Below are positions 1-15,206 of a DNA stretch of 23,379 bases, one piece after another. Origin of the DNA: a virus; the IMG/VR virus record IMGVR_UViG_3300005253_000320, positions 1-23,379 of that record. One strand, 5' to 3'. Numbering within the stretch: the stretch's first letter is position 1; each line of letters begins with the position of its first letter. The notes under the pieces were generated by a model. It saw only the letters and a list, made by a program, of their open reading frames with translations, did no database searches and had not been told where the DNA came from. The position numbers and the translations under genes were made by a program.

Positions 1-587
1 TCCCGATTGGCCAAGTCCTCCCGGATTGCTTTCTTGGCGGTCTTAATATCAGGAGCCGCTGCCACCAAGGGATCATCGAGGAATTCCGTAAGAAGAATAG
101 CATCAGCCACTTCCTGAGCCGGAGTACCAAGGGCCTCGTGACCAAGAATTTCTGTGGCGGTGGCTTTGATCGTTTGTCCCTCACCAGTACTTCTATCGTA
201 CTGTCCTCGCTGGCCCACACGGAACGTATGCAACGCGGCAATCGCTCTTGCTCTTTCTTGCCAAGATAGATTGACTCGTATTGCGTTCTCAGCAAGTTCA
301 GCCTCGTGGAGTTGCTCAGCAGAGAGTTCATCGACTGTGACAAATGGTATTGTCCCACTAGCAACAGTTTCTCCGTCATGTTGGTAATCTCCTTTTATGT
401 CTGCGACAGCCCGGAGTCTTCGCTCTCCGGCTACAAGTGTGACTTCGTCATTCCGAAGGACTATCGGTTGGAGCAGGCCAATTTCTGAACTGATAGAGCT
501 TCCCAATTCCGATAACGTCTTCTTGTCGAAGTCTCGCCTTTGCCTTCCCTTGGACACGACAACGTTTTGGATCTGAATCGTCTTCAT
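1..587 (-). CDS. ParB/Spo0J-like N-terminal-domain protein (3' end off window)
   Basis: The minus-strand frame is open from ATG at 587 to the left edge (195 codons visible). Residues 37-44 read GLLQPIVL and 54-60 read GERRLRA, the hallmark box of the ParB/Srx fold. Residues 97-117 carry the family's AEN-x4-NLSWQERARA segment, followed by a helix-turn-helix-like stretch (about 142-190). The start is fixed by the usual family N-terminus just upstream of these motifs. ParB proteins bind DNA and hydrolyse CTP in partition systems, but phage copies are also nucleases or regulators, so the role here is open. No parA or parS is visible. The first 140 bases overlap the sulfotransferase gene in another frame. 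A purine-rich GGAAGGAC lies about 12 bases upstream, a weak ribosome site. Confidence 0.85.
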   Translation of the reverse strand, partial: MKTIQIQNVVVSKGRQRRDFDKKTLSELGSSISSEIGLLQPIVLRNDEVTLVAGERRLRAVADIKGDYQHDGETVASGTIPFVTVDELSAEQLHEAELAENAIRVNLSWQERARAIAALHTFRVGQRGQYDRSTGEGQTIKATATEILGHEALGTPAQEVADAILLTEFLDDPLVAAAPDIKTAKKAIREDLANR

Positions 588-1098
588 AGAATCTTTTTAA
601 GTCCTTCCGGTAACGGCGAGCGACCTTGGCCGCCTGCTCTGTTGTATATTCAGGCATCTTCTGCTTGGTCTTTCCAATGAGTTTTAATTTGAGACTCAGC
701 CCGAACATATAGTTCAGCCGAATGATTTCATGCTCTAAGTCCTCAAAGTAAAACACTTCACAATCCCTTGGTACTACGTGATCGGCTCCCCAAACGTGGT
801 GATCACAGTAGGGTTCTCTAGTGGCACATACGCAGTCGAGGAAGTCATCCCACGGGATTCCTCTGTAGCAGCCGAACTCACGCAATGGTGGATAGTCAGC
901 ATCTCGTGCCCAAAGTGAGGCCAGCCGGTCGAACGGAGATCGTACCACTGTCAGTTTTTGGATACCCGACGGTATCAATCTCATATCGACCGGCGTGCCT
1001 CCCCAAGCATCTTGGAACGAGCTAGTTGCAGCCTTCCGCACCGGATACCATGCCAGGTTGTCCGGCCGAAGCCATACTCTGTAGCTCGCTAGGTCCAT
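448..1098 (-). CDS. Sulfotransferase-family protein
   Basis: The 216-residue protein has the two PAPS-binding elements of cytosolic/Golgi-type sulfotransferases. A 5'-phosphosulfate loop reads RKAATSSF (residues 21-28) and a 3'-phosphate element reads VVRSPFDRLASLW (51-63, with R53 and S61). A later YFEDLEHEI segment resembles the family's ExL region. The family transfers sulfate from PAPS to a hydroxyl or amino group. The acceptor here is unknown and could be host surface glycan, a small metabolite or a protein. The ATG directly follows the stop of the 1099-1593 gene, so the gene is in the same operon. The last 46 or so residues are read across the ParB gene start in another frame and are probably not part of the catalytic fold. 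Family assignment is fairly sure; function is not. Confidence 0.8.
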   Translation of the reverse strand: MDLASYRVWLRPDNLAWYPVRKAATSSFQDAWGGTPVDMRLIPSGIQKLTVVRSPFDRLASLWARDADYPPLREFGCYRGIPWDDFLDCVCATREPYCDHHVWGADHVVPRDCEVFYFEDLEHEIIRLNYMFGLSLKLKLIGKTKQKMPEYTTEQAAKVARRYRKDLKRFYEDDSDPKRCRVQGKAKARLRQEDVIGIGKLYQFRNWPAPTDSPSE

Positions 1099-1593
1099 TT
1101 ATGCCAGGGCTGCTACCTTGTTGACATTAGCATACACGATCTCCGGGTCTTTCTTGTCCGGCGTATGCTTGACGGCAACTATGCAGGCTTGCCCGAGAAG
1201 GGCTCCGAACGAGAACGCCTGTCCTGGCTGGTTCAATCCTGTTGCCTCACGGAGGCGGCCCAGGTTGACGTTCTTGCCTTTGCCTGTCTCGAGTGTACCC
1301 CCCTCGTTGAGATCGAGGAAAATCGACTGACGAATCGTTGGTTTCGGTAAGCCAGTCTCCTCCCGTACAGCTTGATCATCAATGCCATACGTCACATCGA
1401 GTATCGTCCAGAGTTGCGCTGGATCGTTGGGGTTCTGTTGCTGGCGAGCTTCCACTTTGGTGATTAGGGCAGGGTATTCACCTGCCGGAATCAAGATGAA
1501 CTGCGTGTCCATCTGCTCGCTGGTTTCTTGCATGAGGAACGATGCAGGGTCAAAGGTCAGTGGTGCTGGTACTTGTGCTTCAGGTACGTTCAT
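1099..1593 (-). CDS. Probable phage single-strand DNA-binding protein (DUF669-like)
   Basis: A longer frame is open to 1701, but the ATG at 1593 is preferred. It forms an ATGA junction with the stop of the Sak4-like gene and has GGAG nine bases upstream. The 164-residue product has the layout of DUF669-like phage proteins: a GEYPALITKVEARQ strand, a WTILDVTYGI strand, a variable loop, IFLDLNEGG, then a helical NLGRLREATGL segment and a C-terminal beta strand ending near VNKVAALA. Such proteins commonly lie beside phage annealases and are thought to bind single-stranded DNA. There is no acidic SSB tail. Its coupling to the Sak4-like gene supports a joint role in recombination. The call rests on pattern and context rather than a catalytic motif. 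Confidence 0.6.
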   Translation of the reverse strand: MNVPEAQVPAPLTFDPASFLMQETSEQMDTQFILIPAGEYPALITKVEARQQQNPNDPAQLWTILDVTYGIDDQAVREETGLPKPTIRQSIFLDLNEGGTLETGKGKNVNLGRLREATGLNQPGQAFSFGALLGQACIVAVKHTPDKKDPEIVYANVNKVAALA

Positions 1594-2396
1594 TGTGTCT
1601 TTCTCCATTGGTCTAGGATGGGAACAAAGCTTGGCTGTTGATTGTCTTTCCAAGGAAGGTTCCGCGCTTTGGTATCTGCTCCGGCTGAAGCCGTTGACCA
1701 ACTGAAATTCGCTCCCTCTCGAACTGTGTGTATAACGTCCGAGAAGAAACGGGGAACGGCTGGGCCTAGCTTTTTGCCGAGGGCACTTACCATTAGTTTG
1801 ATACCGCCGAGCACTTCATCTACTTGTCGGTCAACGTGAGCCGACAAAACAAAGTGACATTGAGTACCGAGACATAGCTTGTTGATGAACCTTTCTTCAT
1901 TGTCCATAGCTATGCCCCAATCCGGGAGTGTCCGTATTGGCTTGCCACCGACGACAAGATCGAGAAGCATAATGTTCAAACCGCTCAAACTGTCGAAGAC
2001 AAAAGCCTTGTCCGTGCCGAAGGAATCGACGGGACCATAATCCTTATCGACTCTTTGACAATGGAAGTTGTTACAGACATTTAATACGTCAATAAACTGG
2101 GAGTAGGCCGCCTTGTTCATGCCGGGCATCTTCTGCAATGTGGCATTATCGAACTGGTTGACCAACTTTGCGTTCTTTATCATTACATCCCACTCCGGTT
2201 GGGCTGGAGCAACGTAGTGCCAGTGGACTTGATCCGGGTCAGTATCTCCCAAGATCTCCATACCTGGCTCGGTGAAAACGATAAAGACTTCTAACCCAGC
2301 ATCTACTAGGGTACGAATGCAGTGCGTCTTGCCAGTGCCTGGCGCACCCATTAGTAGAATGTTAACACCGGGGATGGTGCCTGCTGGAATTGTCAT
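1590..2396 (-). CDS. Sak4-like RecA-fold ATPase (single-strand annealing protein)
   Basis: The 268-residue product has a Walker A motif GAPGTGKT at residues 17-24 and a Walker B strand AFVFDSLSG near 130-138. A later LSAHVDRQ strand resembles the RecA-core sensor region of the phage AAA_24/Sak4 group. Sak4 proteins are short RecA/RadB-like ATPases that promote single-strand annealing and usually work with the phage SSB. Here the next gene is a candidate SSB and overlaps it by four bases. The ATG at 2396 overlaps the stop of the preceding small gene (ATGA). The length is typical for the group, and no Lon-like or helicase domains are present. Confidence 0.82.
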   Translation of the reverse strand: MTIPAGTIPGVNILLMGAPGTGKTHCIRTLVDAGLEVFIVFTEPGMEILGDTDPDQVHWHYVAPAQPEWDVMIKNAKLVNQFDNATLQKMPGMNKAAYSQFIDVLNVCNNFHCQRVDKDYGPVDSFGTDKAFVFDSLSGLNIMLLDLVVGGKPIRTLPDWGIAMDNEERFINKLCLGTQCHFVLSAHVDRQVDEVLGGIKLMVSALGKKLGPAVPRFFSDVIHTVREGANFSWSTASAGADTKARNLPWKDNQQPSFVPILDQWRKTQ

Positions 2397-3672: not shown

Positions 3673-3958
3673 CTTTGACCACGGTAACACTGCCATCTGC
3701 GTTTATACGGGTACGTCCGGGCTCACTGTCCAAGATGTCTTCAAGCTCATGGATCGTTGGCTTGTGGTCTAAAATGCTGGTTTCGTTGTGATTCCAACCA
3801 GCGCAGAAAGTAGCCCACAGAGAACCATCGACGTGCTCTTCTTGCAGCGCCCATTTGCGGGCATTCGCGTAATCGTCAGTTTCCTTGTAAGAGTCGAAGG
3901 CGACCTTCATTGGGTGGTCATCAGCGATCTTCGCCATTACTTTGCTGTCTTGCATCAT
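3665..3958 (-). CDS. Hypothetical protein, 97 residues
   Basis: The frame is open far upstream, but the ATG at 3958 is chosen. It overlaps the stop of the nuclease gene as ATGA and has GGGAG six bases upstream. The upstream extension would lie inside the nuclease gene and reads as low-complexity Arg/Ser. The product is acidic, with an aromatic centre (WATFCAGWNHNET) and a C-terminal strand RINADGSVTVVKDD. It may be an accessory to the nuclease because of the coupling. No family was recognised. Confidence 0.68.
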   Translation of the reverse strand: MMQDSKVMAKIADDHPMKVAFDSYKETDDYANARKWALQEEHVDGSLWATFCAGWNHNETSILDHKPTIHELEDILDSEPGRTRINADGSVTVVKDD

Positions 3959-4917
3959 CTTATCTCCCGAATGATTGGGTCCCAGCGAGCGTGTTGGAAA
4001 TACACAGGCAGATAACCTGTTGGCTGGATGCTCTCGCAGAGCACCTGATAGGAGCAGCCGCCGTACTGACCACAGCCCCCATTCTCCATTCCATACTGAG
4101 GCCAGTATCCGCTGTGCCACATCTCTACCATGCGCTCCGCGTCGTGGATCAACCTCTCCTTCCATGCCGCCACGATGTGTGGGGGCCTGTGGACTATGAC
4201 TTCTGCGAGGTTGTACTTTGTCTTGAGGATCGCAATTCCTCTGATGATAGCACCGACAACCGCGAAACCATGCTCTTGAGCGCCAACAGTGTATGCGGTA
4301 AACTGGGATCGGAGTCTCCACTGATTAGCCCAGCTCGGTCCGAGGGAGCCTGTTGTCTTATCATCAAAGATAAAGAGTCCCTTGTTGTATTCAGAAAGCA
4401 TGTCACATCTTCCGCTGAATAACAGTGGGTTGCCGGTAACCGGGTGAGGTACTTGCGGGATCTCAATTGTGAAGGAGAACTCGACTCTGGGTTCACCCTG
4501 AAACATGGATGGTTTGCAGCTATCTGTTTCAGGGGGGTACTGAAGAGTGTATTCGACCAGTGCTCCAATAAGTCGCTCATAGTTCTTAGCAGACCCTTCA
4601 GGAGGTTCGTAGTCTCCGTAGTTGACGATCGCGGCATATACTCCGTCAGCAAGAGAGTGAGATAATCTGTCAGAAGGAGACATCTCTCGATACTTTGATC
4701 CGTAGTAAGAGCGTCGATATGTCTCAAGTCCGGCGGCATATGCACTCCCAAACTTGAGGTGCTCGTTTTCTTCTTTGGGGATGTATCCATTGATCTGCTC
4801 CCATTGGAACTTGCGGGGGCATAGACTATATGCCTCGCGGATTGAAGAAGATAGTACAGGTGGGAACTCAGGCTCAAGTGCTGGAATGGTTCCGAAGGTT
4901 GGTTCAGAGCTGCTCAT
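3955..4917 (-). CDS. Cas4/RecB-like PD-(D/E)XK exonuclease with Fe-S cysteines
   Basis: The 320-residue product shows the RecB-nuclease motifs in order: SGRCDML with D172, FIFDDKTT with D185 and K187, and QFTAY (Q205...Y209), the QxxxY motif. C33 (SLCPRKF) and the C-terminal C282, C288 and C294 (CX5CX5C) match the four-cysteine iron-sulphur arrangement of Cas4/AddB-type nucleases. These enzymes resect DNA ends 5'-3' and feed annealing proteins, so the enzyme fits with the Sak4-like ATPase and the helicase in the same block. The ATG at 4917 has AGGAG six bases upstream. It overlaps the 44-residue gene upstream by 14 bases and the next gene by four. Confidence 0.87.
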   Translation of the reverse strand: MSSSEPTFGTIPALEPEFPPVLSSSIREAYSLCPRKFQWEQINGYIPKEENEHLKFGSAYAAGLETYRRSYYGSKYREMSPSDRLSHSLADGVYAAIVNYGDYEPPEGSAKNYERLIGALVEYTLQYPPETDSCKPSMFQGEPRVEFSFTIEIPQVPHPVTGNPLLFSGRCDMLSEYNKGLFIFDDKTTGSLGPSWANQWRLRSQFTAYTVGAQEHGFAVVGAIIRGIAILKTKYNLAEVIVHRPPHIVAAWKERLIHDAERMVEMWHSGYWPQYGMENGGCGQYGGCSYQVLCESIQPTGYLPVYFQHARWDPIIREIR

Positions 4918-5038: not shown

Positions 5039-5294
5039 TGAGCTTCTCCACGAACTCGGCCTTCTTACTCTGTAACTTAAGGACCGTGTCTTTGATTGAC
5101 ATTTTTATCGACATGACCGTGTCGTACAGAGCTTTGGTTTTGGGCAAGGCATCTCGTACTGCGTAGCGATATTTATAGAGTTCTACTCTGAAGGCAACGG
5201 CCTTCCCATGCGAGGAGAACATCATAAGAACCGGAACCTTTGCGGCCTTCTGAAACATTTGCCGATATTCAATCGGGTACTTGTCGTATCTCAT
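5028..5294 (-). CDS. Hypothetical basic protein, 88 residues
   Basis: The product is lysine- and tyrosine-rich. The first half may form strands (VPVLMMFSSHGKAVAFRVELYKYRYAV) and the second half a long basic helix (IKMSIKDTVLKLQSKKAEFVEKLSEH). It resembles small phage proteins that bind DNA or modulate host enzymes, but no family is recognised. It is coupled by ATGA to the upstream gene and overlaps the 44-residue gene by 11 bases. Confidence 0.65.
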   Translation of the reverse strand: MRYDKYPIEYRQMFQKAAKVPVLMMFSSHGKAVAFRVELYKYRYAVRDALPKTKALYDTVMSIKMSIKDTVLKLQSKKAEFVEKLSEH

Positions 5295-5479
5295 CCCAGC
5301 AGATCGTCCAAGTCCACCTTGACTGATGGGGTCTTGGTAGCTTTTTTGTTTGCTGCTGCGTGGGCGGCGATGCGCTCGCCAGTGAGGGTTTCGATTGCGC
5401 TGCGCAGTTCGTCTTGAGAGACGTCTTCATCTGCAAGGATTTTACGGCGCAGATCGTTTAGTTGATCGGCTGTCGGCAT
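5291..5479 (-). CDS. Small helical protein with LDDLLG C-terminal tail
   Basis: The frame is open to 5509, but ATG 5479 is preferred. It has AAGGA nine bases upstream and lies just downstream of a good promoter (5505-5533) whose -10 would fall inside the longer version. The 62-residue product has two helices (ADQLNDLRRKILADED, QDELRSAIETLTGERIAAHAAANKK), a linker, and a terminal VKVDLDDLLG. The last seven residues nearly match the ends of two unrelated early proteins in this window (7604-7828 and 14742-15206), suggesting a shared docking tail. Confidence 0.7.
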   Translation of the reverse strand: MPTADQLNDLRRKILADEDVSQDELRSAIETLTGERIAAHAAANKKATKTPSVKVDLDDLLG

Positions 5480-7302: not shown

Positions 7303-7607
7303 TCGTTGAAGTCCAGTGGGGTGTAGCCTCTGTGGCGACGTCCTAGACGGAACTCCGGATCGAACTCGTCACCGCGTGTGGCTCGGGTGCGTCGAGCCCT
7401 GTCCATTATTGTGTCGATCGAAGGCCCATAGAAGATTTCCTCTCCGTCTGGTCTGGTATTGTCCCACTCGCACCAATGTAGACTGGCATAGTTTTCCTCA
7501 TATCTTTTCCTCCATCTCTCTCGTCTGTACGCAGCAACCAACTCAGGTTCATTGCGCTTACGAATGACAGGTCTGGGAACCCAGAAGTCTGCGGCTTTGC
7601 TCTTCAC
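7299..7607 (-). CDS. Hypothetical basic protein, 102 residues
   Basis: The gene starts at GTG 7607, overlapping the upstream stop as GTGA, and ends in an ATGA overlap. The protein is Arg- and Trp-rich (LVAAYRRERWRKRYEENYAS; HWCEWDNTRPDGEE), with a second basic stretch (IMDRARRTRATRGD). Its composition suits a nucleic-acid-binding or virion-independent early protein. No family was recognised. Confidence 0.65.
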   Translation of the reverse strand: MKSKAADFWVPRPVIRKRNEPELVAAYRRERWRKRYEENYASLHWCEWDNTRPDGEEIFYGPSIDTIMDRARRTRATRGDEFDPEFRLGRRHRGYTPLDFNE

Positions 7608-7828
7608 ATCAAATCGTCCAAGTCAACTATCTTGGGTTGGTGGTGGACCTCTGGTACTTCGCCACAGGCCCACTTGTGAAGAAGACTCTCAACCAGCTCA
7701 GTCCAAGCTCCGTATCGAGGCTTGCCTGTTAGGGGGTCAGCCAGCTGAGAGTCTATTTCCTTTACGATAGATGTCCGAAGCGACAGCTTCTTGTCTATTG
7801 GTCTGTCAACCAGACGAGGGCGTGGCAT
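7604..7828 (-). CDS. Small ribbon-helix-helix-like protein with LDDLM tail
   Basis: The 74-residue product begins with a basic arm (MPRPRLVDRPIDKK), then a predicted strand KLSLRTSI, a helix VKEIDSQLADP, a turn GKPRYG, and a second helix AWTELVESLLHKW. This order is that of small ribbon-helix-helix proteins that phages and plasmids use as transcription regulators, so DNA binding is likely. The C-terminus KIVDLDDLM nearly repeats the tail of the 5291-5479 and 14742-15206 proteins. It starts inside the end of the upstream gene (overlap 23 bases). Confidence 0.65.
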   Translation of the reverse strand: MPRPRLVDRPIDKKLSLRTSIVKEIDSQLADPLTGKPRYGAWTELVESLLHKWACGEVPEVHHQPKIVDLDDLM

Positions 7829-8037: not shown

Positions 8038-8340
8038 TCAGGCACAGAACTGGTCTCGTTTGCGCTGGAGCTTTTCTTGGTCTTTCTTGTTGAGAGGACG
8101 GAGGGGTAGAGCTTTTCCAAGATAGAGACCAGTTTCATCGCTGGCGCGTGGCATGAGATAGCCGGTCGTTGAGGGTTTGATTATCTTGAAACGCCCAAAG
8201 TCATTATTTGGTTGGACGATAGCCCCAACGATGCAATATCTACTCCCAGGCTTTTCGTACCAGACATCGCCTTCTTCAACTTCTGTGATCTCATAGAAGC
8301 GGTCTTGATCCAAGTTGTTGTCACTACTCTTCATCTTCAT
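8038..8340 (-). CDS. Hypothetical protein, 100 residues
   Basis: The product has a beta-rich core (FYEITEVEEGDVWYEKPG, RYCIVGAIVQPNN) and a basic helical end (LNKKDQEKLQRKRDQ). It starts 17 bases inside the helicase gene; ATG 8334 is an alternative. It could be a small partner of the helicase because of the overlap, but that is inference. No family was recognised. Confidence 0.65.
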   Translation of the reverse strand: MKMKSSDNNLDQDRFYEITEVEEGDVWYEKPGSRYCIVGAIVQPNNDFGRFKIIKPSTTGYLMPRASDETGLYLGKALPLRPLNKKDQEKLQRKRDQFCA

Positions 8341-9814
8341 ACTCCATCATAAACACAAGATTGTTCTTTGCGCGGGTGATTGCGACGTATCGCAAGTTTT
8401 CTTCCTGACTGTATTCTTTCGACTCCGGGTCTATCCAGGGGCCAGGCACGAGGTCCGGCCGAAGAAGAAACGCATGTTCAGCTTCCATCCCCTTCGCCTT
8501 ATGAATAGTGCATAGACGTGGCCCGGTGTCTGATCGAAGAAGCCGTTCGAGTGCTTGGACGACCTGAGCCTTAATGCGATATTCGTCACAGAAGGGTAAG
8601 AGGGAACGCGCCTTATCGTTAATGCGATTGATCTTGTGGAATAGCTCTCGACTTTCGGCTTCCGCAATTTCCTTCTTTCTCCACTTCTCGATTTCATTAG
8701 CTAGGTCCTCTGTTGTAGTCACCTCGAACGAGTTGACAAACTTAATCAGTTGCTCCCCAAAATTGGATACTACGAGGCAGGGTATCTTATACTTGAGGAA
8801 CTGCACAGCATAGCGGAACATCGGAGCGTTTGTCCGACACATGACGATACTGTCGTCTGGTATGTCCTTGGGATGGATGCCGTCGTCTAGTTCAACGATG
8901 CTTCCATCAGATGCCGTCGACGACCACTCGATTTGCGGGACTATAGCTTGGGCAAGTTTCACGATACCTTTTGCACAGCGATAGCATACGCTGAGTGGAT
9001 ACTCAACACATTCAAACATCGAGTTGAGTTCTTCCATACTGTTGGTAAGTGCACCGCGAAATCCATAGATCGCTTGGCGACTGTCGCCGACGGCAATTAT
9101 CCTTGCGCCGCGTTCGGCTAGTTTCGACAACATCATGTGTTGGATTGGGTTTAGATCCTGAGCCTCATCAACGAACACTGTGTCGTAGTTCGGGAAGGTC
9201 ATGTCCCAGTACACAGGCATGTACAGTTGATCGTCGAATGTGAAGACATTCTCAACGTCGAGCGAAGCAAGCCAAAGCTCTTCGAGTATCATAGAAGCGT
9301 AGTCGATACGATCCATCGGCACTTCAGAGTGCTCGACATAGTTCTGGAAGTCCTTTGGCATCGGCGGCTCAAGCATTCCAGCTCCCTTCATCGAGCCGAT
9401 AATTTTGATAAGTTCGAAGCCAAACTCACGGTACTCAGTTGAGGACATGCGGGGCTTGAGGAGCTTTGACAACTTCCACTTGTCGAGCTGACTCGCAGGC
9501 ATTTTGCGCTTGAGCAGCGCATGGCCAAGAGCATTGAAGGTCTTACAGTCAGTGCCCATTGGAGTCTTTTCGCGTAGCTCTTGTGCGATTGCACGATTAA
9601 ATGCTAAGAATAGCACACTACCACGGACAAGGTTCATCGCGTATAGTATAGTTGTGGTCTTACCGCTTCCAGCTACTGCTTCAATGGAGATGTTCTTTGT
9701 TTCATGCTGCACAGCATCAAAGATAGCCCGTTGCATTGGGCTCCAGTCAGTCCCTGGAAGTTTTTCTTCTGAGCCTTCTTTCATAGACTCAGGGATTAGT
9801 TTATCCATGTCCAT
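8324..9814 (-). CDS. UvrD/Rep-type SF1A DNA helicase
   Basis: The 496-residue protein has all main SF1A motifs: a Q-like SPMQRAI (25-31), Walker A AVAGSGKTT (46-54), motif II VFVDEAQD (213-220), motif III AVGDSRQAIYGFRGA (241-255), an YPLSVCYRC motif IV (272-280), a late TIHKAKGMEAEHAFLL motif V and YVAITRAKNNLVFM motif VI. It is an ATP-driven 3'-5' translocase/helicase, shorter than cellular UvrD (about 720), as is usual for phage copies. No nuclease domain is attached; the RecB-like nuclease is a separate gene in the same block. The start ATG 9814 forms TAATG with an upstream frame and has GGAAG six bases before it. Confidence 0.9.
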   Translation of the reverse strand: MDMDKLIPESMKEGSEEKLPGTDWSPMQRAIFDAVQHETKNISIEAVAGSGKTTTILYAMNLVRGSVLFLAFNRAIAQELREKTPMGTDCKTFNALGHALLKRKMPASQLDKWKLSKLLKPRMSSTEYREFGFELIKIIGSMKGAGMLEPPMPKDFQNYVEHSEVPMDRIDYASMILEELWLASLDVENVFTFDDQLYMPVYWDMTFPNYDTVFVDEAQDLNPIQHMMLSKLAERGARIIAVGDSRQAIYGFRGALTNSMEELNSMFECVEYPLSVCYRCAKGIVKLAQAIVPQIEWSSTASDGSIVELDDGIHPKDIPDDSIVMCRTNAPMFRYAVQFLKYKIPCLVVSNFGEQLIKFVNSFEVTTTEDLANEIEKWRKKEIAEAESRELFHKINRINDKARSLLPFCDEYRIKAQVVQALERLLRSDTGPRLCTIHKAKGMEAEHAFLLRPDLVPGPWIDPESKEYSQEENLRYVAITRAKNNLVFMMEYEDEE

Positions 9815-10693: not shown

Positions 10694-11066
10694 TGTGTTC
10701 CTCTATGACTTCACCTAATGCTTGGACGGCTATGTCCAAGCAGGCAATGAATTTAGTCTTGAAGGCTTCTTTGTCTGCCTCCTGCTCTATGTCCAGGTAA
10801 GAGCAAGCGGCCTCACAAAGAAGTGCGGCGGTCATTCCATTGATTCCTCTGGAGTCTATTCGGTCGATACTACAGTGCAGGAGTGCTCCGGCGTGAGGGT
10901 CTCCTTCTGCGTCGAGCGCAGCTCTGGTGACACTGTAGGCAAGCCGAGAGCTTCGGTACTGACGATCTTCGGCTTCCTCTTTCGAGCAGCGTTGAGGTTC
11001 CATGGCCTCTCCGATTTCTTTGAGTAGGCCTTCGATATCGTCGGATGTGATTCTAAGCACTTTCAT
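10632..11066 (-). CDS. Hypothetical helical protein, 144 residues
   Basis: The product starts MKVLRITSDDIEGLLKEIGE and is helical throughout, with a Cys/Ala-rich middle (GMTAALLCEAACSYLDIEQE) and a Ser/Thr/Gln-rich, probably disordered tail (about 125-144). The tail is the part read through the overlap with the next gene, so it may have arisen by extension. ATG 11066 overlaps the upstream gene by 14 bases. No family was recognised. Confidence 0.65.
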   Translation of the reverse strand: MKVLRITSDDIEGLLKEIGEAMEPQRCSKEEAEDRQYRSSRLAYSVTRAALDAEGDPHAGALLHCSIDRIDSRGINGMTAALLCEAACSYLDIEQEADKEAFKTKFIACLDIAVQALGEVIEEHNDASTEQSTQVSSDQPPATS

Positions 11067-11436
11067 TGAATAAATCCCCTTGATGGTCTTGGGCGAGTTG
11101 TGTCTCTGCTAGGCAGCTCGGACAGTGTGAAATGCAAATGTGATTTGCTTCGATACGTCTTGGTAGGTCTGCATGATTGACTGGTAAATACTTCTGATAA
11201 ACGCTAGCAACTACCTTCTCATAGTAGTATTGGTCGTAGCGCGTGAGGGTGTCTCCGTAAGTTGGTTGCTCGTAGCGCCGACCGCAGTTGCAAGTCCAAT
11301 CGGTCCAGAATAGCACGACTTCTCGGGCTACTCGGCTTCGGCGTGGCGCTCGGAGCAGATCATCAAACGAGATGACGTTGCTCGGCTTGGCGTCGCCAGA
11401 CAGTAGATCGCTGAGGTCAACCTTTATCTGTTTCAT
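11053..11436 (-). CDS. Zinc-binding-like protein with LSDLL/FDDLL motifs and QGDLF end
   Basis: Of two adjacent ATGs (11445 and 11436), the second is preferred because GGAGG lies ten bases before it and only one base before the first. The 127-residue product begins MKQIKVDLSDLLSG and then has VISFDDLLRAPRR, two copies of the LDDLL-like motif found at the tail of other early proteins. CNCG near residue 50 and CISHCPSCL near 105 could bind zinc. The end reads HQGDLFNESA, close to the clamp-binding pentapeptide QL(S/D)LF. Replication-related docking is a reasonable but unproven reading. Confidence 0.68.
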   Translation of the reverse strand: MKQIKVDLSDLLSGDAKPSNVISFDDLLRAPRRSRVAREVVLFWTDWTCNCGRRYEQPTYGDTLTRYDQYYYEKVVASVYQKYLPVNHADLPRRIEANHICISHCPSCLAETQLAQDHQGDLFNESA

Positions 11437-11590
11437 TGATTGCATCCTCCAGAGCGATGAATAGTTTACGCAGGGCTGACGCGGTTTCTACGTCAGGTAT
11501 GTCACCGAGTGTGACCTTGCCGATGAATGATCGGAGGGCCACGGCTTCGGGTCGGTCTAGACTTGCCTCTATGACTTGAGTGTCTTGCAT
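11417..11590 (-). CDS. Small acidic protein, 57 residues
   Basis: A short frame runs from ATG 11590, sharing its A with the upstream stop (TAATG), to TGA at 11417. The product (MQDTQVIEASLDRPEAVALR..., ...ALRKLFIALEDAINETDKG) is helical and acidic. It fills an otherwise empty 150-base gap and overlaps the next gene by 20 bases. No family was recognised. Confidence 0.6.
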   Translation of the reverse strand: MQDTQVIEASLDRPEAVALRSFIGKVTLGDIPDVETASALRKLFIALEDAINETDKG

Positions 11591-12774: not shown

Positions 12775-12802
12775 GTGAACCGGCCTCTCTGTGGCTGAGA
12801 TT

Positions 12803-12830
12803 GGGGAGAAGCCACTATTGACTTCTCCCC
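12803..12830 (-). other. Perfect 9-bp stem hairpin, possible weak terminator or processing site
   Basis: GGGGAGAAG (12803-12811) and CTTCTCCCC (12822-12830) form a perfect nine-base-pair stem with a ten-base loop, in the 149-base gap between the 12924 and 12774 genes. No T-tract follows on either strand, so it is not a standard rho-independent terminator. The rest of the gap holds no gene, only a near-palindrome GTTTCTTTAAGGAAAC (12874-12889). Confidence 0.5.
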
Positions 12831-12923
12831 TCTCTTCCTAACTTCCTGTTGATTAGACTTTTTTTAAGTCGAGGTTTCTTTAAGGAAACTCTGTTTCGTG
12901 AAGTCCCTCCTCTGCTGCTTCAG

Positions 12924-13457
12924 TTATGCCGCTGGTGCGGCAGTCTCTTCGACTGTCTCTGTTGCTGCGCCAGCCAAATCGGACAGATCCGCCACTTCCT
13001 CGCCTTCACGAGCTTCGCGGATTGTCTTGGCCAACTCAACGATCGAGGAATGGCCAAGGATCTGGTCTCTGGCTGCCTTGTCGTAACGACGCAGCGCAGC
13101 TTGAGCCTGTGGAATGCTGATACCCTTGAACTGAGCAAGAGCTTCGACCTCGGCGGAGACAGTCGGTGCGCCAACCTTGCGCTCTTTCTGCCACTGACCG
13201 CTGGCCAGTTGCTCAGCAACTCCTTTCATAGCTGAGAGCTTCTCGGGTCCAGTCTTGACATCGCTGGACCGATCTTGCAGCAACTTGCTTAGGCCATACA
13301 GCGCCGTCAGTTGCTTCAGATCATCGTGGATATCACCTGCCTTGAAGGACGCTGTGTCGATAACTTCTTCGGTTTCACGTTCCCTCACTGTCACGTCGAC
13401 GGACATTGCTTCAGCGTTGAGGTCTACGGACAGGGCATACGGATTGTTTCTTGTCAT
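12924..13457 (-). CDS. Paralogue A of a two-member small phage family
   Basis: The 177-residue product shares a central block with the 14742-15206 protein: LYGLSKLLQDRSSDV, then GQWQKERKVGA, then EALAQFKGISIPQAQAALRR. Upstream of this is an N-terminal beta-like segment (SVDVTVRERETEEVIDTASF). The C-terminus is acidic and Ala/Glu/Thr-rich (VADLSDLAG then ATETVEETAAPAA), probably disordered. The fold after the beta part is mainly helical. No catalytic motif is visible; I recognise no family beyond the internal paralogy. It has its own promoter (13508-13536), and GGAG lies nine bases before ATG 13457. Confidence 0.75.
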   Translation of the reverse strand: MTRNNPYALSVDLNAEAMSVDVTVRERETEEVIDTASFKAGDIHDDLKQLTALYGLSKLLQDRSSDVKTGPEKLSAMKGVAEQLASGQWQKERKVGAPTVSAEVEALAQFKGISIPQAQAALRRYDKAARDQILGHSSIVELAKTIREAREGEEVADLSDLAGAATETVEETAAPAA

Positions 13458-13507
13458 GCGGTTCTCCAGTTAAGTTACTTTATCCGGGCATTGCCGCCCG
13501 TATTCTC

Positions 13508-13536
13508 AATTTACGCCTAAGTAGCGGACAGGTCAA
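13508..13536 (-). promoter_or_regulatory. sigma70-like promoter for the 13457 gene
   Basis: On the minus strand TTGACC (13531-13536), a 17-base spacer and TAAATT (13508-13513) form a five of six plus four of six match. The -35 overlaps the stop codon of the upstream gene. TGTCCG follows the -35, as TCTCCG does at 5505-5533. Confidence 0.62.
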
Positions 13537-14246
13537 GCACTTTTTTTAGATTGTTTCTTCTCCTGCGCTCGTAGCTTCTTGGACGATTTAAGTGCCTCTT
13601 CCATGTAGTCTGGAGTCGGCTCATCGACCTGAATACTCGGAGTAATTAGGTCAGTTAAATCTGTCCTATCAATAGGGACACCCTTGAGTATCTCGTCAGC
13701 CATTTCCTCTGTCATGTCTGGATCGACTGCGGTCTTGACTCCACCAAAGAAGTGCGCCACGGGGCTATCCGCGTCTCTCATCTTGGCTGTATCGACTGCC
13801 TGCATAGGTTGTCCCTGTAATCGCCGAAGGATCTCATCTCTCGACAAATCCCCGCGCTCCTCTGCCTTGGCTATCATGATGTCCAGTTGTTCAATGCCTT
13901 CGCGCTGTCTCTCGTCCATGCCGCGCAAGATAAACCTTAGTTGCACGGTTTCCAGCTCCGGGTTGGGTTCGGGATCTATCACAACTAAATACCTTCGCAT
14001 TACATCCTCACGTCGAGAAGCATACTCAAGCATCTTGATCTTACTCTCGGGTGTCAATGCCTTGTTGCCAGGTATGCTCTTTCCATGACACTTCCACGCA
14101 TTGATGTACGCATAGAAGTTGTTTCGATGATAGATCGCCAGCTTGCCTGACATGGTTAGCTGTATCTCATGCTGACCTCTGTCCATTAGCTCTGCGAGCT
14201 TATCATAGAATGGTCCGTAGTTCCTTGGGTCTTTACTGCGAGGCAT
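13533..14246 (-). CDS. Hypothetical protein, 237 residues
   Basis: The product begins MPRSKDPRNYGPFYDKLAEL and has an N-terminal part (about 1-55) with a strand IQLTMSGKLAIYHRNNFYAYIN, suggestive of a DNA-contacting winged or ribbon fold. The middle is a long acidic and basic helical region (ERQREGIEQLDIMIAKAEE), and the end is lysine-rich. DRTDLTDLITP near 200 is again a DL-x-DL sequence. A run of seven A lies in the last codons. GGGAG sits seven bases before ATG 14246. No family was recognised; a regulatory or replication role is inference. Confidence 0.7.
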   Translation of the reverse strand: MPRSKDPRNYGPFYDKLAELMDRGQHEIQLTMSGKLAIYHRNNFYAYINAWKCHGKSIPGNKALTPESKIKMLEYASRREDVMRRYLVVIDPEPNPELETVQLRFILRGMDERQREGIEQLDIMIAKAEERGDLSRDEILRRLQGQPMQAVDTAKMRDADSPVAHFFGGVKTAVDPDMTEEMADEILKGVPIDRTDLTDLITPSIQVDEPTPDYMEEALKSSKKLRAQEKKQSKKSA

Positions 14247-14418
14247 TTAACAACTCCCTGAATTCCTCTTGCGTGGAGACGAGAAGTTGAGCGGTCCAGA
14301 AGGCATTGGAGAACTTCAATGCAACCTCTTTGATTGCGATGAGTTCATCAAACTCTTCCTTTTCGATAGTAATCGTGTGATCATCGATACTATATTGTCT
14401 TAGTCTAGGCTGTTCCAT
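14233..14418 (-). CDS. Small acidic protein, 61 residues
   Basis: This is the first gene after the 14449-14477 promoter. AGGAAG precedes ATG 14418 by eight bases. The product has a strand HTITIEKEEFDELIAIKE and a helix VALKFSNAFWTAQLL, and ends in EEFRELLNASQ. It overlaps the next gene by 14 bases. Leading position suggests an early regulator, but no family was recognised. Confidence 0.62.
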   Translation of the reverse strand: MEQPRLRQYSIDDHTITIEKEEFDELIAIKEVALKFSNAFWTAQLLVSTQEEFRELLNASQ

Positions 14419-14448
14419 GTCTTTGCTTCCTTGTCCACGCCTTCCTAC

Positions 14449-14477
14449 ACGATACCACGTACGCCCGGAGTAGTCAA
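14449..14477 (-). promoter_or_regulatory. sigma70-like promoter for the 14418 gene
   Basis: On the minus strand TTGACT (14472-14477), a 17-base spacer and TATCGT (14449-14454) form a five of six plus four of six match. The leader to ATG 14418 is about 25 bases. Confidence 0.62.
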
Positions 14478-14709
14478 GCTGTTTGTCCTTACATTCCCTT
14501 ATTTCCCCTTAATGCCTTGGGATTTGCTTGGACCCCCATACCGACATAGGGACTATATTAAAAAAAAGAAAAAAAAAAAAGGACATCCCTACTATGAATA
14601 GGGGGGTGGGGTCGATATTCTCTGAAATAAGGGGAAATCAGGGGTAATATGGTCTATTAAGCAAGATATGTCGCGTCAAACATTGCCTTCATCTAAGAAA
14701 CGCACAAGG
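14478..14709. repeat. Gene-free control region with an inverted repeat of about 16 bp
   Basis: The gap between 14419 and 14741 has no gene. CCCTTATTTCCCCTTA lies on the plus strand (14496-14511). On the minus strand, around 14628-14643, there is CCCTGATTTCCCCTTA, with one mismatch. The shorter CCCTTATTTC (14496-14505) and GAAATAAGGG (14624-14633) are exact inverted copies 118 bases apart. Between them lie an A-tract and a short GGGGGGTGGGG run (14601-14611). The arrangement could be an operator pair, an origin element or a looped control site; no iterons of the usual sort were found. Confidence 0.5.
14560..14580. other. A-tract (T-tract on minus strand)
   Basis: The plus strand has eight A, one G and twelve A. 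On the minus strand this T-run follows a five-base-pair hairpin (CCCTA 14587-14591, TAGGG 14599-14603), so it could be a second rho-independent terminator. It could equally be a bent or easily melted DNA element of an origin. Confidence 0.45.
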
Positions 14710-14732
14710 AAAAAGGCCCGTCCTTGGGCCTT
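14710..14732 (-). terminator. Rho-independent terminator after the 14742 gene
   Basis: AAGGCCC (14713-14719) and GGGCCTT (14726-14732) form a seven-base-pair stem with a six-base loop. On the minus strand it is followed by five T (14714-14710). It lies nine bases past the stop of the 14742-15206 gene, so transcription of that gene ends here and the 14418 gene starts anew. Confidence 0.75.
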
Positions 14733-14741
14733 AATCTCCTT

Positions 14742-15206
14742 CTAGCTGAGTAGGTCGTCCAGACCAACCTCAGCCGCCTTCGACCGGGCTTCCTCAATAG
14801 CCGAAATCGTCTCGGCTAAGTTGCCCTTGAGCACAATTCGCTGCTCATCGTCGAGTCCACGATACGCTGCTTGCGCTGCGGCTACCGAACAGCCCTTAAT
14901 CTGGGCTATGGCTTCGATAACTGTGGGCAGGAACCGGGCACCAGCTACTCGCTCGGCCTTCCAGTCACCGGCTAGAAACTGCTTAACCAGTTCCTTAGCC
15001 TGATCCATTTTCAGGTCGCTGCTGACCTGACTCAGCCGGTCGTCAATGATCTTCGAAATTCCATAAACGAAGATTTCTGCTTGGATCTTTTCCGGGAACG
15101 AGTTCCCGTCGATTTCCAAGGCCGTGTTTGTCTTGCTATCGACTTTGATGGCAAGACCCTTGTCGGCATTACGCTGCCAACTATAGCGTTGCTTGGCTTT
15201 CGCCAT
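14742..15206 (-). CDS. Paralogue B, small phage family, with LDDLLS tail
   Basis: ATG 15206 is preferred over GTG 15215: AGGTGA lies six bases upstream and the mature-looking start is MAKAKQRYSWQRNA. The 154-residue product shares with the 12924-13457 protein the blocks VYGISKIIDDRLSQV, GDWKAERVAGA and EAIAQIKGCSVAAAQAAYRG. It ends EVGLDDLLS, a tail similar to those at 5291-5479 and 7604-7828. It is the sole gene of its transcript, between the 15276-15305 promoter and the 14710 terminator, so it may be expressed separately and strongly. Function unknown; abundant DNA-associated protein is a guess. Confidence 0.75.
   Translation of the reverse strand: MAKAKQRYSWQRNADKGLAIKVDSKTNTALEIDGNSFPEKIQAEIFVYGISKIIDDRLSQVSSDLKMDQAKELVKQFLAGDWKAERVAGARFLPTVIEAIAQIKGCSVAAAQAAYRGLDDEQRIVLKGNLAETISAIEEARSKAAEVGLDDLLS

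Follow-up and report, generated by a model that had tools for sequence, protein, structure and literature searches.

We analyzed the 23,379-base record IMGVR_UViG_3300005253_000320 from IMG/VR, a fragment of a tailed-phage genome that was taken in its entirety (the window), and we focused on two proteins of its early half, A (alpha) and B (beta). Our results confirmed that A and B are true paralogs. They occur as a fixed pair almost throughout a large, little-studied phage group whose members look lytic, and they share an acidic-hydrophobic C-terminal tail with a third early protein (gamma) that is otherwise unrelated to them. The three tails co-vary within genomes. Sequence comparison suggests, with about even confidence on our part, that all three proteins dock on one common, putative hub through this peptide and that their heads act as distinct adaptors. 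The pair represents a new, well-defined, and testable feature of this phage group.

Proteins A and B are diverged paralogs

The original prediction paired A and B because four short sequence blocks recur in both. We found both open reading frames (ORFs; Table 1) and all four blocks, and the alignment between the proteins is above chance. BLASTP aligned them with 37% identity over 109 residues (57/109 positives, E = 9e-17), and their Smith-Waterman score of 160 compares with 35 +/- 6.5 for shuffled sequences (z = 19). The ATG of each gene is preceded by a Shine-Dalgarno-like GGAGA or AGGTG.

AlphaFold2 predicted the same order of elements in A and B: strands, a helical hairpin, a linker, a four-helix C-terminal domain, and a short tail helix. 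The predicted layout of A comprises a three-stranded N-terminal sheet, a hairpin containing YGLSKLLQDR, and a GxWxxxR linker ahead of the C-terminal domain. Mean confidence (predicted local distance difference test, pLDDT) was 91 for A and 87 for B. The models thus resemble each other and do not have unrelated folds, though both were built on one common alignment of 79 sequences and are not fully independent.

Searches for structural relatives returned little. Foldseek matches of the models to the PDB had E values of 8.8e-3 or higher, and VIA-align matches reached Z scores of at most 4.4 and covered one half of the protein only. The DnaK substrate-binding domain, XLF, and RuvC gave partial matches with root-mean-square deviations of about 17-25 Å, which we treated as noise. 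A PDB profile search with the pair family produced no match below E = 0.1, and Pfam and NCBIfam scans of 79 family members produced only isolated single-member matches at chance level. The lack of a convincing PDB match does not imply that the fold is new.

The pair is constant across a large phage group

Both proteins matched phrog_28928 (A, E = 2.5e-6 over residues 27-97; B, E = 0.0037), which holds both copies from Vibrio phage vB_VspS_VS-ABTNL-3 (41293-41826 and 42572-43159) and is annotated in PHROG as unknown function. This PHROG belongs to the same sequence family as A and B, but it has no assigned function and is limited to the Vibrio-like branch: 14 of 79 family members matched it, and most of the relatives we found lie outside it. 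IMG/VR scans with A alone or B alone retrieved no relatives. Entry to the family was gained with an alignment of A, B, and the two Vibrio copies, which matched IMG/VR records, and the search was extended to Microcystis phage Mel-JY34 and MW202489, then to 76 further contigs, and then to a side group. A and B are both members of the enlarged family. A is 50-59% identical to the alpha copies of the related records L013-L016, and no relative of B exceeds 34% identity. A literature search found no paper naming the two isolated relatives.

Records were picked for holding the family, not by copy number. Exactly two copies were present in 55 of the 56 related records of at least 38 kb (28/28 and 27/28 in whole-record profile counts), and the pair thus does occur in related phages, as the original prediction had proposed to check. 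The only long record with one detected copy (G052/L120, 43.5 kb) may have lost the second copy or may hold one that is too diverged. Three copies were seen in no record, and the other single-copy records are fragments of 11.5-32 kb. The two copies usually lie 0.3-6 kb apart, and phages that infect hosts as different as Vibrio and Microcystis keep the pair.

Scanning 84,980 bacterial species genomes with a profile of the side group (L090/L091), which covers one branch only, gave a single match. The matching contig (L099, from metagenome-assembled genome RFGN01000635.1) carries a convergent pair at 265-741 and 909-1367 and is probably a phage contig binned with a bacterium. Within the branch covered by the profile, this result argues against prophage carriage, and the carriers of the pair look like lytic phages. 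A pair that is real, lies on the early side, and is conserved as a pair in related phages makes the central task once predicted for it plausible and, in our view, likely. Its presence in practically every group member suggests an essential step in the infection cycle, although no function has been named for it and no relative has been solved.

The C-terminal regions of the pair stay matched and share their tail with a third protein

We compared the two copies region by region, within and between genomes, in 54 genomes of the large group. Within-genome similarity exceeded between-genome similarity in the C-terminal domain (z = 6.8) and in the tail (last 14 columns, z = 8.5). No such excess was found in the N-terminal sheet (z = 0.5) or the hairpin (z = 1.35) of these genomes. 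The confinement of the excess to the C-terminal domain and tail indicates that the heads have diverged and that the C-terminal parts have been kept matched.

The tail follows the consensus [VI]DxDxLL, with no Q in the motif. Its form differs by group: it reads VxLDDL in the window group and VDTDALLxEL in the large group, and the Vibrio-like group has either FDxDSLF or DLSDLL. The motif occurred in the last 30 residues of 20 of 2259 ORFs outside the pair family, compared with 0.7 expected from shuffled sequences or 1.9 from the internal rate. Nearly all 20 belong to one family of small proteins (about 70 residues) that have a Lys-rich linker, represented in the window by the third protein. Whole-record searches detected this family in 49 of 52 related records (E <= 1e-6), and its profile alone also retrieves the tails of the pair. 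When the third-protein and pair profiles were compared with hhalign, only 15 tail columns aligned (P = 1.7e-5). The third protein is not a fragment of the pair, since the cores do not align and no match was left after tail removal. A literature search for such a shared early-protein motif in phages found nothing relevant.

Tails of the pair and of the third protein are more alike within a genome than across genomes (z = 6.4, 7.1, and 6.5). The effect persisted after pruning to core identities below 70% (z = 5.1-5.7). Below 60% identity, where 7-8 genomes were left, p values were 5e-5, 1.3e-3, and 5.9e-3, to be read as upper limits of confidence, as are all p values for tail co-variation. An amino-acid composition control on the heads revealed no within-genome effect. 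Among the tail types are KF (L035, L036), LM (L043, L056, L057), and LF (L045). Such co-variation is expected if the tails bind one common partner that differs between phages.

A candidate docking function for the tail

We favor a model in which each head, comprising the three-stranded sheet and the helical hairpin with its conserved YG/HGxxxK..D motif, would join a flexible linker that leads to the small helical domain and the acidic-hydrophobic tail. The diverged heads of A and B probably have different targets, and the matched C-terminal domains and tails probably serve the same docking partner. Because the third protein shares the tail, this partner would be a single hub with at least three clients. 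The hub would be part of the machinery for replication and recombination, or of what couples that machinery to transcription. The former is our first guess because the constant neighbors of the pair are a Sak4-like recombinase, a single-stranded DNA-binding (SSB)-like protein, an exonuclease, and a helicase; RNA polymerase coupling is our second. The Sak4-like protein is present in 15/15 related records, and relatives of the separate SSB-like protein occur in 16 of 18 records tested. The docking model suggests direct uses for the tail, as the peptide could serve as bait for the hub, and the model predicts which combinations should work when tails are exchanged between phages.

Several points count against this model. 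The hub is putative, and docking is proposed from comparing sequences. The tails were modeled at low confidence (pLDDT of about 63-64 in A and about 70 in B), and they look different in the side group (L090, L091, L099, L101-L104, L107). The C-terminal excess could stem from old gene conversion rather than from co-adaptation. Finally, the permutation tests count genomes and not independent events, and shared ancestry inflates their significance even after pruning.

The proposed arrangement resembles that of gp43, gp55, and gp33 of phage T4, which have one common C-terminal motif for binding the sliding clamp; one T4 tail can replace another, and one of them is also functional at an internal position (PMC2988020). 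Here too, at least three phage proteins have an acidic-hydrophobic tail in common, and the third is not homologous to the other two. The T4 clamp-binding motif is LDFL, and bacterial beta-clamp binders follow the consensus QL(S/D)LF (PMC9690074). The phage tails described here differ from both, as they read [VI]DxDxLL and contain no Q-x-x-L/LF pentapeptide, and the heads, unlike those in T4, are neither sigma- nor polymerase-like. The T4 analogy raises an alternative that we consider unlikely, a transcription switch. In it, A and B would attach to the RNA polymerase of the host, or to its sigma factor, and steer the enzyme toward middle or late phage promoters, and their tails, like those of gp55 and gp33, would anchor them to a hub that tracks along DNA or sits on the polymerase. 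Two separately encoded early factors with a shared acidic-hydrophobic tail would reproduce the T4 late-transcription arrangement (PMC2988020), and the pair adjoins the divergent early/late boundary of the window. However, domain and fold searches recognized no sigma-like or RNA polymerase-binding domain, and no late-promoter motif was identified. The putative hub is not a recognizable phage-encoded clamp: DnaN-type and T4-type clamps (PF00712, PF02916) were absent from 15 related records, although the 14 control genomes offered no informative positive control for the T4 profile.

The C-terminal tip of SSB is acidic and then hydrophobic, follows a flexible linker, and supports hub-type docking. 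The tails of A, B, and the third protein share these sequence properties, and we propose a similar mode of docking for them. They differ in being carried by these three proteins and not by the phage SSB-like protein, and in being frequently non-terminal. The SSB-like protein stops directly after its fold, with no acidic-hydrophobic tip, in about 33 relatives. The tails may imitate the SSB tip and, by filling the pocket that receives it on repair and replication proteins of the host or the phage, recruit these proteins or block them, an explanation that we regard as rather improbable. Besides the tip-less phage protein, it draws on some side-group members that end in DADLPI, DSDLPI, or ADLPL (the two L099 copies end in DADLPI and DSDLPI), which we take to be near the known SSB tip and treat as a lead, not a test. 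This likeness is clear in the side group only. An SSB tip, moreover, always forms the very end of its protein, but VDxDxLL, the main motif, often lies inside the chain. A bolder form of the docking model, of which we are doubtful, would posit an undescribed system: a hub, encoded by phage or host, whose peptide pocket would receive three or more early clients (the obligatory paralogous pair and the small Lys-rich protein among them), and a tail that co-evolves with the hub in each phage, with the pair supplying tips for the tip-less SSB-like protein.

A and B might instead inactivate two different host proteins by binding them, for host takeover or counter-defense. Their early position and the fast evolution of one copy would fit this role, yet the pair is retained across very different hosts, its other member evolves slowly, and the tails match a third phage protein. 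These observations indicate a partner internal to the phage and make a host target improbable. Binding of single-stranded DNA, which the original prediction had offered as an example of a central task, is suggested by the early, paired genes close to the recombination module. We now consider it very unlikely. The phages conserve an SSB-like protein distinct from the pair, the isoelectric points of A and B are acidic (4.8 and 5.6), and the models place three strands (A) or two (B) before the helices, with neither a five-stranded barrel nor the layout of an oligonucleotide-binding (OB) fold like that of SSB. It is similarly hard to credit that the tail is a proteolysis signal limiting the lifetime of early proteins, even though it lies close to the C-terminus in several of them. 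Long extensions often follow the motif in the two copies (median 6-8.5 residues, up to 39 and 49), and one window protein has it near the N-terminus (11053-11445). Such a frequently non-terminal motif is expected of a docking peptide and not of a degron.

History of the two copies

The copies form two clades in the largest group: a conserved downstream copy (HGAEQK type) and an upstream copy that evolves faster. Across three deep lineages (the window group, the Vibrio-like group, and the large group), the copies cluster by lineage. A tree constrained to a single ancient duplication shared by all phages is worse by about 99-104 log-likelihood units, and approximately unbiased (AU) tests reject this scenario for three copy labelings (p = 4.7e-5, 1.4e-5, and 1.3e-5). 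The two-copy state was therefore reached, or the copies homogenized, more than once: either independent duplications occurred several times and always ended at two, or homogenization took place long ago. Recent gene conversion between the copies can be discounted, as their nucleotide identity is about 0.45-0.54 throughout and the codons of identical residues mostly differ.

Organization of the locus

The early half of the window runs leftward, with B as its gene 1 and A as its gene 4. The control region that was thought to separate the pair does include about 320 non-coding bases, but it also contains two ORFs (13533-14246 and 14233-14418). The original prediction also gave each gene its own promoter. 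A promoter-like site of 9/12 matches lies upstream of A, and we found none of that grade upstream of B. The terminator placed after one of the genes corresponds to a terminator-like hairpin directly after B, but the region as a whole is not enriched for terminators (3, versus 3.0 in shuffled sequences). Expression as near single-gene units is thus plausible for B and weakly supported overall. In L013, L014, and L016, near relatives of the window, the two copies lie on opposite strands and face each other, which shows that joint transcription is not required.

Table 1. Positions of the pair, its tail motifs, and related features in the window
Feature	Position	Strand	Basis and remarks
SSB-like protein	1099..1590	-	phrog_378, E = 1.3e-3; conserved; no acidic tip at end
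Sak4-like recombinase	1590..2396	-	phrog_124, E = 2.5e-15; conserved neighbor module
PD-(D/E)XK exonuclease	3955..4917	-	PF12705, 4.4e-13; module of the Sak4-like recombinase
Third protein (gamma), 72 residues	5291..5509	-	Small helical head, Lys-rich linker, tail KVDLDDLLG (5294-5317)
Small early protein, 74 residues	7604..7828	-	Motif; ends KIVDLDDLM (7607-7627); no Pfam match
UvrD-like helicase	8324..9814	-	phrog_1967, 5.8e-96; module of the Sak4-like recombinase
Early protein, 130 residues	11053..11445	-	Motif KVDLSDLLSG near N-terminus (11401-11421); no Pfam match
A (alpha), 177 residues; downstream, more conserved copy	12924..13457	-	ORF, homology, AlphaFold2
Tail motif of A, VADLSDLAG, 14 residues before C-terminus	12969..12995	-	Sequence; hhalign, third-protein versus pair profile
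Promoter-like site upstream of A, TTGACC-17-TAAATT	13508..13536	-	9 of 12; consensus match only
Terminator-like hairpin directly after B	14713..14732	-	Consensus match only
B (beta), 154 residues; upstream, faster-evolving copy	14742..15206	-	ORF, homology, AlphaFold2; layout as A
Tail motif of B, VGLDDLLS, at C-terminus	14745..14768	-	Sequence, AlphaFold2; predicted short helix, residues 149-153

Among the remaining genes of the window, which is part of a tailed-phage genome, are one for an SU10/P22-like portal and one for a terminase that shares 40% identity with its counterpart in Microcystis phage Mel-JY34 and 35% with that in Vibrio phage VS-ABTNL-3. A sulfotransferase-like protein (448-1098, minus strand; PF03567, E = 6e-5, just above the cut-off) is encoded at the end of the early operon. 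An Rfam search of the window gave zero matches. Of the two ORFs between the paralogs, the one at 13533-14246 (minus strand, 237 residues) matched nothing in Pfam and gave only a weak match in PHROG. A strong, imperfect palindrome with 17-nt arms and a 4-nt loop lies just 3' of A (12798-12835) and lacks a T-run. In the non-coding stretch between B and the next ORF (14419-14741), inverted arms of 16-19 nt flank a long A-rich tract. These arms (14487-14511 and 14624-14643) are up to 94% complementary and lie 116 nt apart, and the stretch could be an origin or a regulatory site.
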